From the NCBI GenBank assembly GCA_020059465.1, contig JAGVBZ010000032.1:1-64000 (forward strand): a DNA stretch of 64,000 nucleotides, written 5' to 3'. The notes below the pieces were generated by a model, which was not told where the DNA came from, searched no databases, and was given only the letters and a program-made list of their open reading frames with translations. Below are positions 1 through 11,893 of this stretch, piece after piece. Origin of the DNA: Brevinematales bacterium. Lineage in GTDB: Bacteria > Spirochaetota > Brevinematia > Brevinematales > GWF1-51-8. Numbering within the stretch: position 1 is the first letter of the stretch; every line of letters begins with the position of its first letter. A program made the translations under genes and the position numbers.

Positions 1-888
1 TCTGTATTCAAAACGGTGTGTCGCGAGATTAAATTTCGAGGCCATCCCGAAAAGGAGGCTCATCGTCTCTTTTTTCAGGTTCGGGTCGCCTTTTTCCCAG
101 CTACAGTAAGGATGGCAAAAATAGGATTTCATTTCTAACTCATGGTTTACTCGCATATGAAACCTGTTTTCAATCCCGTTATCGTATGTGCTTGTCTTCC
201 TGAAACTTTTCGGAAAAACGACTAACGACTTTTTCATCGCTAGAAATTTTTCTTCCGCGTTATTTCTGGAGACTTTTTTCAGTCTCGCCAATCCACCCCT
301 TCTCTCTACAGATGTACATACGCAGGATTTTCCTTTTTTCCCCTCCAACGTGTCGGTTTCCCAATGCCCGAACTCGGTTCTATTATTAATCTCCTTTGTC
401 CTCTCTTCGATGCTAATTCTTTCAGGTATATTCAGTTGCCTCGAACTCGCCGGCTGTCCTTTCTTCTTCCTCACTTTCCTTCTCTGCGGTAGATAAGGAA
501 TCAATTTCTTGTCTTCCCGGTAGATGTACTGATAAATCGTTTCATGACTGACATTGCTTTGATACTCGATTTTCAGCCGTCCCGATATTTGTTCAGGCGA
601 CCAGCCGAGTTTAATCTTCTCGCAAACATAATCACGGATGCCCTGTTTGTCTAACTCGCTTTTCCGTTTGGCGGCGCTCCGAACCCTCTCTTGATAATAC
701 CGTTGCGCTGCGTCGGGATTATACTCCGGTTGAAATACTTTCCATCGATTCCTTTCAAGTTCACGGCTGATCGTCGAAGGATGCCGTTTTAAATTTTCGG
801 CTATCTTATTAGGTTTCATCCCGTTTTTCCGATGAATAAATATTCGGGTTCTTTCTTCATAACTTAAATGCTTATAATTGTGCGACAC
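1..888 (-). CDS. IS30-family transposase, start present, 3' end off the window
   Basis: Translating the minus strand from a GTG at 888 gives 296 codons without a stop down to base 1, so the gene continues past the left edge. The N-terminus (SHNYKHLSYEERTRIF) and a helix-turn-helix with PSTISREL at residues 37-44 are typical of IS30 transposases, which bind the element ends and cut and join DNA with a DDE active site. Two core blocks are clear: GHWETDT (174-180) and TYDNG (234-238). The HPYCSWEKG block (259-267) follows. After residue 267 (base 88) the expected ENTNG-like block carrying the catalytic Glu is not recognisable, so the element may be truncated or rearranged there. Family call is secure; intactness is doubtful. 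Confidence 0.88.
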   Translation of the reverse strand, partial: MSHNYKHLSYEERTRIFIHRKNGMKPNKIAENLKRHPSTISRELERNRWKVFQPEYNPDAAQRYYQERVRSAAKRKSELDKQGIRDYVCEKIKLGWSPEQISGRLKIEYQSNVSHETIYQYIYREDKKLIPYLPQRRKVRKKKGQPASSRQLNIPERISIEERTKEINNRTEFGHWETDTLEGKKGKSCVCTSVERRGGLARLKKVSRNNAEEKFLAMKKSLVVFPKSFRKTSTYDNGIENRFHMRVNHELEMKSYFCHPYCSWEKGDPNLKKETMSLLFGMASKFNLATHRFEYR

Positions 889-999: not shown

Positions 1000-1028
1000 T
1001 TGACAAAATGCTGAAAATAATCTAAATT
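1000..1028 (+). promoter_or_regulatory. sigma70-type promoter for tRNA-Ser (and probably the repressor gene)
   Basis: TTGACA at 1000-1005 and TAAATT at 1023-1028 are separated by exactly 17 bases. The tRNA begins 14 bases after the -10 hexamer. Confidence 0.7.
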
Positions 1029-1042
1029 ATGTACCGAATTTT

Positions 1043-1127
<85 letters not shown>

Positions 1128-1148
1128 TATTTAATAAGGGAGATGTAT

Positions 1149-1814
1149 ATGAATATCCGGGAAAGATTTAGAAAAGTCAGAAAACGTTTAGGCCTGAAAC
1201 AGGCTGAGATCGGAAAGGTTCTGGATTTATCTCAGGATGCTATCAGCGCGATCGAGACCGGCAGAAACAAACCCACACTCGATGTCCTGTCTATTCTGTA
1301 TAACAATTATGATGTCAATGTGGAATGGATGCTGACAGGAAACGGAACGATGTTCCTGAACGGGATAGGCGAGGATGAGGGAAGCACAGAAAAGAAGCAG
1401 GCGGCGATCTATATTCCTGTTGTCGGCGCGAAGGTTTCGAGGGAATATGGAACGGTGTTTGAAAATGCTGAGATCACGATTGAAGAGTATTTTCCGTTAT
1501 CGGGAAAGGTATTGAACTCTTTTCCCGTTGATAAAATAAAGGCATTCCACATCGTTTCGGATATACTTTATCCCTTTCTTTCAGCCGGGGATTATGTAGT
1601 ATTTATCGAAGAATTCCGGCCGAAGACCGACGGGATATATATTGTGAATAAATCCGGCGTATTATCGGCGCAGAGGATTATCTACCGTACCGACGGGGGA
1701 ATTGTCATCAGCCCGGATAACCAGAAATACCCTCCCGAAGAGATTTCATCGCAGGACGCGGGAAAAGTGATTATTGCCGGAAAAGTGGTTTCCAAACTCC
1801 AGAGTATTCTCTAA
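1149..1814 (+). CDS. HTH repressor with LexA/CI-like S24 domain lacking the catalytic dyad
   Basis: A 221-residue protein. Residues 1-60 form an XRE/Cro-type helix-turn-helix ([21 protein letters not shown]), followed by the WMLTGNG segment common in such repressors. Residues 88-221 match the S24 (LexA/CI C-terminal) fold. In this family a Ser in a GDSM-like motif and a Lys carry out self-cleavage. Here the aligned segment is [13 protein letters not shown] (136-148), with Ile139 at the Ser position, and Gln175 in LSAQRI sits at the Lys position. The usual Ala-Gly cleavage site is not visible either. I infer a dimerising regulator that does not cleave itself. The start ATG at 1149 was chosen because AGGGAG at 1137-1142 is well spaced; an upstream in-frame ATG at 1086 lies inside the tRNA. 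Converges on ribBA with 3 bases between. Confidence 0.85.
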
Positions 1815-1817
1815 TTC

Positions 1818-3035
1818 CTAATCGTTGTGATTGAACATGTGCCCCATTTTTTCTTCCTTTGTGCGCAGATACTTTTCGTTATGCGGATTGGGCTCAATTT
1901 CTATCGATACCCGCTCGACAATCTCAAGCCCGAACCCCTCCAGAGCGTGAGTTTTTGTGGGATTGTTTGTAAGCAGGCGAATTCTGCTGATCCCCAGATC
2001 TTTGAGTATCAACGCACCGACGCCGTAGTTCCGCAGATCCGGGGCGAATCCCAGATGCAGATTGGCTTCGACCGTGTCAAGTCCCTGATCCTGAAGGGCG
2101 TAGGCCTTGATTTTGTTCAGCAATCCTATTCCGCGCCCTTCCTGTCGCATATATAGTACTAATCCGGCGCCCTCCTTGTCGATCATCTGCAGCGCTGAAT
2201 GAAGCTGATCGCCGCAGTCGCAACGGAGAGAGCCTAATATATCCCCGGTGAAGCATTCGGAATGTACGCGGACTAATACGTCCTTCTTTTTGGAAAAATC
2301 TCCTTTTATGATAGCCATATGCTGATAGCTGTCCAAGTCGTTTTCATACATAATGATACGGAAATCGCCGTAAATAGTCGGAAGTTTCGCTTCTGCTTCG
2401 CGCCAGATATGGGTTTCGTGCTTGCGGCGGTGCTCGATGATCTGTGCGACCGATATAATCTTCAACCCGTGTTTTTTAGCGAAGCCGATAAGCTCCGGGA
2501 GACGCGCCATACTGCCGTCGTCGTTCAATATTTCACAGATACATCCTACTGGCGTCAATCCCGCCAGGGTCAGCAGATCGACAGTCGCCTCGGTATGCCC
2601 TGCGCGTTTTAGTACGCCTCCGTTCTGGGCCTTGAGGGGAAACACATGCCCCGGTTTCTCGAAGTCGCCGGGCAGGGATTTTTTATCGGCGAGACGGTTC
2701 AATGTGAGCGCACGGTCGGAAGCTGATATCCCAGTCGCCGTATCTTTATGGTCGACCGATACCGTGAACGCGGTCCCCCATTTTTCGTTGGGATGGTCGA
2801 TCATGATATTCAGGCCGAGATGCTCGGTAAACATGGCGGGCATCGGGGCGCAGAGAAGTCCGCGGGCTTCCTTGATGATAAAGTTTATTTTTTCGGGCGT
2901 TGCCAATTCGGCGGCCATCACCACATCGCCCTCGTTTTCGCGGTCTTCGTCGTCGACAATGACGATTATTTCACCCTTCTGTATCGCGTGTATCGCTTCA
3001 TCGAATGTGTTGAAATTCTTTTTATCGACCGCCAT
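1818..3035 (-). CDS. ribBA: bifunctional 3,4-dihydroxy-2-butanone 4-phosphate synthase / GTP cyclohydrolase II
   Basis: A 405-residue cytoplasmic enzyme that catalyses both entry reactions of riboflavin synthesis: ribulose 5-phosphate to dihydroxybutanone phosphate (RibB, residues about 5-205) and GTP to the diaminopyrimidine precursor (RibA, about 210-400). The RibB active-site stretch [17 protein letters not shown] is intact, as are [11 protein letters not shown] and the RibA zinc-binding block with three cysteines, [29 protein letters not shown] appears as [13 protein letters not shown]. The length is normal for the fusion. It stands alone on the minus strand and is divergent from the aminopeptidase gene, with 116 bases between. 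No FMN riboswitch fits in that space. Confidence 0.97.
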
Positions 3036-10785: not shown

Positions 10786-11893
10786 ATGGGAGCATTATTC
10801 GAACGTGTGACCGAACTGAAAAAAACATTTGAGCACGACTGGAGGTATCTTTGAGATCGAGAAACGGGTCTCGGATATCGATAGTATCCGGAAGCAACTG
10901 ACCGACGAAACGGTCTGGAGCGATCACAAACTCTCGTCGAAACTCAACTCGAACCTTTCCACATTGGAACGGGAGATAGAAGACTGGAAAATCATGAGGA
11001 AGGATATCGACGACCTTTTAGGGCTTGTGGAACTGACCGAATCCGACGGGGACGAGGCGATGATTGCCGAACTCCAACAGAACTTCGAATCGCTGACACG
11101 GAAACTCTCCAAGCTTGAAATTGAAATGATATTTTCCGGCGAGAACGATACCCACGATGCGTTCCTGAATCTCCATCCGGGCGCCGGGGGAACCGAGTCC
11201 CAGGACTGGGGCGATATGCTTCTGCGGATGTATCTCCGGTGGGCGGAATTAAACGGATTTAAAGCGGAGTTGGTAGATTACGAACCGGGCGACGTGGCAG
11301 GACTGAAAGACGCGACCATTTATATCCGGGGGAAGTACGCATACGGATACCTGCAGGCCGAGAACGGGATTCACCGTCTTGTGCGCCTCTCGCCGTTTAA
11401 CGCGAACAATAAACGCCAGACCTCGTTCTGCGCGGTCAGTATTATTCCCGAGGTTGACGACGAGATCAAGGTCGACATCAAGGACGACGATATCCGCATC
11501 GATACGTTCCGCGCGAGCGGGGCGGGCGGCCAGCATGTCAACAAGACCAGTTCCGCGATACGGATCACGCATTTTCCGACCGGGATAGTCGTCACCTGTC
11601 AGAACGAGCGTTCGCAGCATCAGAATAAAGACCTTGCGATGCGTGTTTTACGCGCACGTATTGTCAAGTACGAAGAGGAAAAGCGCGACCGGGAGGATGC
11701 GGCGAAAATGCCCGAACGTAAGTCCATCGAATGGGGGAACCAGATACGGAGCTACGTTTTTCAGCCGTACACCCTCGTGAAGGACCACCGTACCGATATC
11801 GAGCGGGGAAATATTCAGGCGGTGATGGACGGCGAGATCAGCGATTTTATTATCGGTTATCTGAAAATGACTAAAATGAAAACGGCAAAATAA
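10786..11893 (+). CDS. prfB: peptide chain release factor 2, made by programmed +1 frameshift
   Basis: RF2 terminates translation at UGA and UAA. The first 22 codons run from ATG 10786 to CTT 10849-10851 and meet an in-frame TGA at 10852. Skipping T10852 continues in the +1 frame (GAG ATC GAG at 10853) for 346 more residues, giving 368 in total, the normal RF2 length. The body carries the GGQ peptidyl-transferase motif (GAGGQHVNKT), the SPF stop-recognition motif (RLSPFN) and the usual helical N-terminal domain. A GTG/TTG-initiated product from within the second frame would lack the N-terminal helix, so the frameshift reading is strongly preferred. Level is likely autoregulated by RF2 itself. 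Confidence 0.95.
10840..10855 (+). promoter_or_regulatory. prfB: prfB programmed +1 frameshift site
   Basis: TGG AGG TAT CTT TGA G: a Shine-Dalgarno-like GGAGG lies just upstream of the slippery CTT and in-frame TGA, as in the classic RF2 element (AGG GGG TAT CTT TGA C). The base after the stop is G rather than the usual C. Confidence 0.93.

Follow-up and report, generated by a model that had tools for sequence, protein, structure and literature searches.

A putatively non-cleaving, genus-restricted XRE/LexA-fold repressor encoded directly behind tRNA-Ser(UGA) in Brevinematales

Introduction

LexA and CI repressors self-cleave at high pH (pH 9–10). LexA-fold repressors that do not cleave (phage 186 CI and Synechocystis LexA) as well as co-opted phage repressors are already known. 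The CI repressor of phage 186 (PDB 2FJR) combines a helix-turn-helix (HTH) with a LexA-fold C-terminal domain and has both residues of the Ser-Lys dyad replaced, with Gly118 and Arg152 standing where Ser and Lys would be (MAFFT). According to its record, DNA binding by CI is inhibited by Tum, which is itself under LexA control. LexA of Synechocystis sp. PCC 6803 is reported to have Gly-Gly for Ala-Gly and Asp for the catalytic Ser, and to regulate non-SOS genes (PMC3091678, PMC7567884, PMC4759255); its control by phosphorylation is a proposal made in one of these reports (PMC7567884). FddR of Francisella and the non-canonical LexA of Bacteroidetes are chromosomal XRE-S24 regulators which, according to the papers describing them, were probably co-opted from phage repressors and retain both the Ser-Lys dyad and the Ala-Gly (PMC13148647, PMC8565304).

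Here we describe a repressor (A) encoded in a 64,000-nucleotide contig region of a Brevinematales bacterium (the whole stretch of DNA analysed, hereafter the window). A resembles phage 186 CI in domain make-up and in the replacement of both dyad residues, but the two share only 13–15% identity in structural alignments, and whereas 186 CI comes from a phage, where it has a switch and an antirepressor of its own, A is chromosomal, orphan and tRNA-linked. With Synechocystis LexA it shares being an S24-fold regulator kept after the loss of Ala-Gly and the nucleophile. However, the cyanobacterial protein is a true LexA, whereas A carries an XRE HTH and scores poorly on the LexA model; in addition, the reports on it name the loss of Ser only, whereas A has lost the Lys too. 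Unlike FddR and the Bacteroidetes proteins, A has neither dyad nor Ala-Gly. What is new is a lineage, genus-wide and under selection, in which all three cleavage features have gone, together with a half-way paralogue (B) and the linkage to tRNA-Ser; no description of the A lineage was found in the literature searched.

Results and discussion

Domain architecture and predicted fold

The start codon of A is preceded by GGGAG, a Shine-Dalgarno-like sequence (for coordinates see Table 1). Pfam assigned HTH_3 (1.9e-10) and Peptidase_S24 (PF00717; 1.5e-7, 31.5 bits against a cut-off of 23.3) to the protein, and PHROGs assigned phrog_4, transcriptional repressor (5.7e-29), while the NCBIfam LexA model TIGR00498 gave 14.5 bits, below its cut-off of 110.95. 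A is thus no LexA but a repressor of the XRE/CI type that carries an S24 domain. By analogy, the C-terminal S24-fold domain would be the dimerisation domain.

An AlphaFold2 model of A, built from 53 sequences, reached a mean pLDDT of 88.2 and a pTM of 0.61. When the model was searched with Foldseek, the phage 186 repressor ranked first (7.8e-10) and LexA structures were among those ranked next. Residues 87–220 of the model matched Thermotoga maritima LexA in VIA with a Z of 15.6 (rmsd 2.3 Å over 123 residues), and residues 1–65 matched the DNA-binding domains of the P22 c2 and 434 repressors with Z of 10.1 and 8.8, respectively. The S24/LexA fold, which a first-pass annotation of this DNA had called recognisable, is thus present in A by both the Pfam match above cut-off and the model.

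Table 1 Positions of repressor A, its domains and key codons, and its neighbours in the window
Feature	Position	Strand	Details
Repressor A CDS	1149..1814	+	221 aa; ATG at 1149; uninterrupted ORF
XRE/434-type helix-turn-helix of A, residues 1–66	1149..1346	+	Pfam HTH_3, residues 8–60
LexA/S24-fold C-terminal domain of A, residues 85–221	1401..1811	+	Pfam Peptidase_S24, residues 106–214
Ile139 codon, place of LexA Ser119	1563..1565	+	MAFFT, both modes
Gln175 codon, place of LexA Lys156	1671..1673	+	MAFFT, both modes
Loop, residues 96–104, expected place of the scissile Ala-Gly, absent in A	1434..1460	+	Alignments; pLDDT <50
tRNA-Ser(UGA), upstream of A	1042..1128	+	ARAGORN; 20 nt gap to ATG
Promoter-like TTGACA-17-TAAATT before tRNA-Ser	1000..1028	+	10/12 matches; A/T-rich UP-like tract ahead
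ribBA, convergent neighbour of A	1818..3035	-	Pfam DHBP_synthase and GTP_cyclohydro2; same in two orthologous loci

Loss of the active site and the scissile bond

We aligned A with E. coli LexA, lambda CI, phage 186 CI and 50 viral S24 repressors using two modes of MAFFT. The first-pass annotation had read Ile139 as replacing the nucleophile and Gln175 as replacing the lysine, and had seen no Ala-Gly scissile bond; the alignment bore out all three readings. Specifically, Ile139 falls on LexA Ser119 and lambda CI Ser150, and Gln175 on LexA Lys156 and lambda CI Lys193 (lambda numbered with Met1). The Ala-Gly region that reads RASAGHG in relatives reads AKVSREYG in A, and neither AG nor CG occurs in the aligned region. 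The annotation had also allowed for a different Ser and Lys occupying the active site, and no second Ser/Lys pair was placed there in the two alignment modes. All A and B sequences (6/6) have Ser137, which lies two residues away from position 139. On these sequence grounds, A would be unable to self-cleave. RecA is encoded in the same genome.

Each of the 24 further S24 homologues that we read in the phylum has the full Ser/Lys dyad together with [A/C]G; these proteins come from among the best matches to a profile of A and B that is unbiased for the dyad. That search listed 35 places, six of them A or B. The 29 others comprised the 24 proteins read, paralogue C of two genomes (G002 and G003, read in the tree set only), two places in G211 left unread and one (L056) without an S24 domain. 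The viral set derives from 80 loci, from which 56 proteins were hand-picked, two being removed by length and four by redundancy. Ser and Lys were present in 50/50 of these, a count that is circular for Ser given that one of the two search patterns contained it, and AG/CG was missing from the inspected stretch in 2/50 (L136, L165).

Orthologues and selection

We searched 100 relatives for orthologues of A, including the three other genomes of the genus (G001, G002 and G003; G000 is the window's genome). Orthologues were found in two of the three other genus genomes, with 86% (G002) and 62% (G003) identity. A was absent from G001, which is 73% complete and also lacks a close match to the tRNA-Ser, so that this genome is uninformative. 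In a scan of a second contig collection, Spirochaetes bacterium GWF1_51_8 (the same as G003) was the one source of A and B; the scan used short exact peptide patterns, with which relatives can be missed.

The position of LexA Ser119 is Ile, Ile and Val in the three orthologues, such that the exact Ile is not invariant, and that of Lys156 is Gln in 3/3; Ala-Gly is absent from both other orthologues as well. The three proteins form one supported clade (100/99). Orthologues sharing the Ile/Gln pair had been proposed as the mark of a separate non-cleaving subfamily, and the pattern found agrees with this, Val standing for Ile in one case. No close homologue with an intact dyad, which could have pointed the other way, was found; the nearest intact ones are ≤31% identical. 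Taken together, A appears to be a separate, genus-restricted, non-cleaving lineage.

Pairwise NG86 estimates of dN/dS for the whole gene ranged from 0.07 (G000–G002) to 0.13 (G000–G003) in three comparisons, in which dS values >1 are rough. The HTH had the lowest dN/dS where it was computable (0.02 for G000–G002; dS was saturated in the other two pairs), and it is more conserved than the C-terminal domain. These values indicate that purifying selection acts on A. A recent inactivating mutation or a pseudogene was ruled out by the orthologues and the dN/dS.

Linkage to tRNA-Ser(UGA)

A lies directly behind tRNA-Ser(UGA) in 3/3 genomes, with gaps of 20, 21 and 20 nt between tRNA and ATG. The promoter-like sequence ahead of the tRNA has the -35 hexamer TTGACA in 3/3 and a 17-nt spacer, with TAAATT, TACATT and TATAAT as the -10; in the window, an A/T-rich, UP-like tract lies ahead of it. 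No terminator-like site was found between tRNA-Ser and A in the window, and the ribosome-binding site, tRNA spacing and promoter are kept across genomes. Because of the 20–21 nt spacing and the conserved promoter ahead of the tRNA, A is probably co-transcribed with tRNA-Ser(UGA) as a second cistron. Once the 3' end of the tRNA had been processed, the A mRNA would start with a leader of ~20 nt.

None of eight tRNA-Ser(UGA) loci in genomes from other families of the order (L069–L076; 282 nt behind the tRNA covered in L073) has an S24 gene behind the tRNA. The tRNA-Ser/A arrangement thus probably dates from this genus or its stem, and at these eight loci there was no sign that an element had integrated long ago at this tRNA in sister families. 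In L088, 4.4 kb separate a prophage-like S24 repressor from tRNA-Ser, and other genes lie in between. At one of the eight loci (L075/L089), a 174-aa ORF right behind the tRNA looked integrase-like by eye, but Pfam finds no family in it and we give it no weight.

The gene order in the other two genomes is exbB (divergent), tRNA-Ser(UGA), A and ribBA (convergent). With these neighbours (exbB, tRNA-Ser, ribBA), a phage lysogeny module is absent around A. In G002, ribBA is split into two ORFs of 237 and 150 aa (L005, 2283–3510, minus strand), through a frameshift or an assembly error. In the window, an ORF at 1–888 (minus strand) is truncated where the contig ends; it separates the tRNA-Ser promoter from the position that exbB occupies in the other two genomes and is presumably an IS30-like transposase, Pfam having returned HTH_38 and other HTH families only.

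Paralogues B and C

The window's genome encodes three S24 proteins: A, B and C. Paralogue B (L030, L031, L029), present in the same three genomes as A (3/3), keeps the Ser, has Arg for Lys and lacks Ala-Gly. A and B together form one clade (100/100), in which B is also a clade of its own. Both lack Ala-Gly and both lie just behind a tRNA gene, which for B is tRNA-Pro(CGG); unlike A, B keeps the Ser and is separated from its tRNA by a hairpin and by its own promoter-like sequence (TTGACATA-TATATTAT). The two share 14/17 residues in the recognition-helix region, compared with 42–50 of 134 (about a third) in the C-terminal domain. Given this shared region, A and B may bind similar or shared operators. 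In the window's genome, B (L090, 2598–7099) is flanked by proS/tRNA-Pro(CGG) and by a ParA-type ATPase, behind which lies an ORF that matches no Pfam family.

C keeps Ser, Lys and ASAG, as do its counterparts in G002 and G003, and is the sole intact S24 repressor of the window's genome, with a helix that differs from that of A. No LexA scored above cut-off in this genome, where the best match to TIGR00498 is C (31 bits). In the tree, in which long branches make the deep S24 relationships unsure, C clusters with a repressor encoded in a prophage-like locus of the order. The C locus itself (L091, 4617–10840; L092; L093) is kept in 3/3 genus genomes. One of its genes is terminase-like and another encodes an FRG-domain-like protein, as tested with Pfam in L091, whereas neither capsid nor portal genes were recognised across the 10–13 kb read. 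The locus may be a domesticated phage remnant or gene-transfer-agent-like.

Within one genus, then, the LexA/CI switch is lost step-wise across paralogues: C has all three features, B the Ser only and A none. A protein that is dead in this sense yet selected makes it testable how a repressor built on one-way proteolysis works once release is gone, and also whether linkage to a tRNA transcript replaces the lost control.

Origin

tRNA genes are the usual targets of integrative elements. Homologues of A at the level of the order sit in prophage-like loci, where gene identities were read from translations without family search, among them genes that we take to encode a Mu-like transposase and MuB, whereas A stands in a housekeeping context in three genomes. 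The position of both paralogues right behind tRNA genes, together with relatives that are phage repressors, suggests that A may descend from a mobile-element repressor. As for att remnants, a search of the window for the 22-nt 3' part of tRNA-Ser (up to 3 mismatches) gave a single occurrence and no second copy, and the 3' part of tRNA-Pro was found once in L090. No phage genes lie beside A.

Proposed mode of action and alternatives

Our preferred reading, to which we assign a probability of roughly 0.7, is that A is a domesticated XRE/LexA-fold repressor that cannot be cleaved, is expressed as a second cistron behind a tRNA and is either constitutive or released in another way. An A dimer, held together by the S24-fold C-terminal domain, would bind its operator through the N-terminal HTH and so repress its targets. 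RecA-stimulated self-cleavage would not release it because the active site appears dead (Ser to Ile/Val, Lys to Gln) and the scissile bond is gone. If A is indeed co-transcribed with tRNA-Ser(UGA), the tRNA promoter should set the amount of the protein, rather than an operator belonging to A itself. A would act constitutively, or be released by another factor (an antirepressor or a modification). An inverted-repeat scan upstream of A and B in three genomes found no motif common to both; the palindrome TAATAAAGTTTATTA of B in G002, considered as an operator, is not kept in the other two genomes. The pocket with its conserved Ser137 may have a different activity.

It is possible, if tentative, that A is a regulated repressor whose release depends on a further protein, in the manner of the phage 186 (Tum) and Gifsy antirepressors, or on phosphorylation, as proposed for Synechocystis LexA; a ligand may even bind in the dead pocket. 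The best structural match is 186 CI, whose DNA binding is annotated as inhibited by Tum. Gifsy repressors are reported to be freed by antirepressors without cleavage (PMC3121763), and in Synechocystis LexA, without Ser and Ala-Gly, phosphorylation of Ser173 is reported to change on salt stress (PMC7567884). The invariance of Ser137 in A and B would be consistent with such regulation. Nonetheless, none of the genes next to A was recognisable as coding for an antirepressor, and regulated release is a refinement of the preferred reading from which sequence cannot separate it.

We consider it unlikely that A is a standing immunity repressor that silences incoming or resident related phages, an immunity that would not be lost on DNA damage since A would not self-cleave. 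Its relatives are phage repressors (phrog_4) with prophage-like loci at the level of the order, and the near-identical recognition-helix region of A and B, against C-terminal domains that have diverged to about a third, makes a shared operator possible. However, a phage with a close relative was not found (phage records showed <60% identity, with 25 listed at 25–30%), IMG/VR matches to the A/B profile were confined to the HTH, and C, the only intact S24 repressor of the genome, has a different helix.

Quite improbable, in our estimation, is a reading in which A is a dead CI-like repressor dosed by the tRNA promoter, such that repression of its regulon tracks the growth-rate control of tRNA synthesis, and in which A and B form a two-input switch, B, with its own promoter and a near-identical recognition helix, competing for or sharing the operators of A. 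If true, this switch would have replaced proteolytic induction in a genus without LexA.

That A is a functionless, decaying prophage-repressor relic is very hard to sustain. All catalytic features are lost, no operator was found and the presumed IS30-like element lies just upstream in this genome, but dN/dS is about 0.07–0.13, the ORF is uninterrupted in 3/3, the HTH is the better conserved domain, and ribosome-binding site, tRNA spacing and promoter are all kept. Catalysis by Ser137 with another basic residue, whereby A would still cleave at a new site, is scarcely credible: Ser137 is invariant in A and B, but in both MAFFT modes it aligns with a Gly that precedes LexA Ser119 by two places and LexA Lys156 has no Lys of A opposite it, the nearby Lys168 is Arg in B (3/3), and the Ala-Gly is lost too.

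Elsewhere in the window, 10786–11893 (plus strand) holds a gene that we take, from its sequence, to be prfB-like (release factor 2). The ATG frame from 10786 meets a TGA, and the main frame begins after ...TGG AGG TAT CTT TGA G, a layout that is the classic programmed +1 frameshift.
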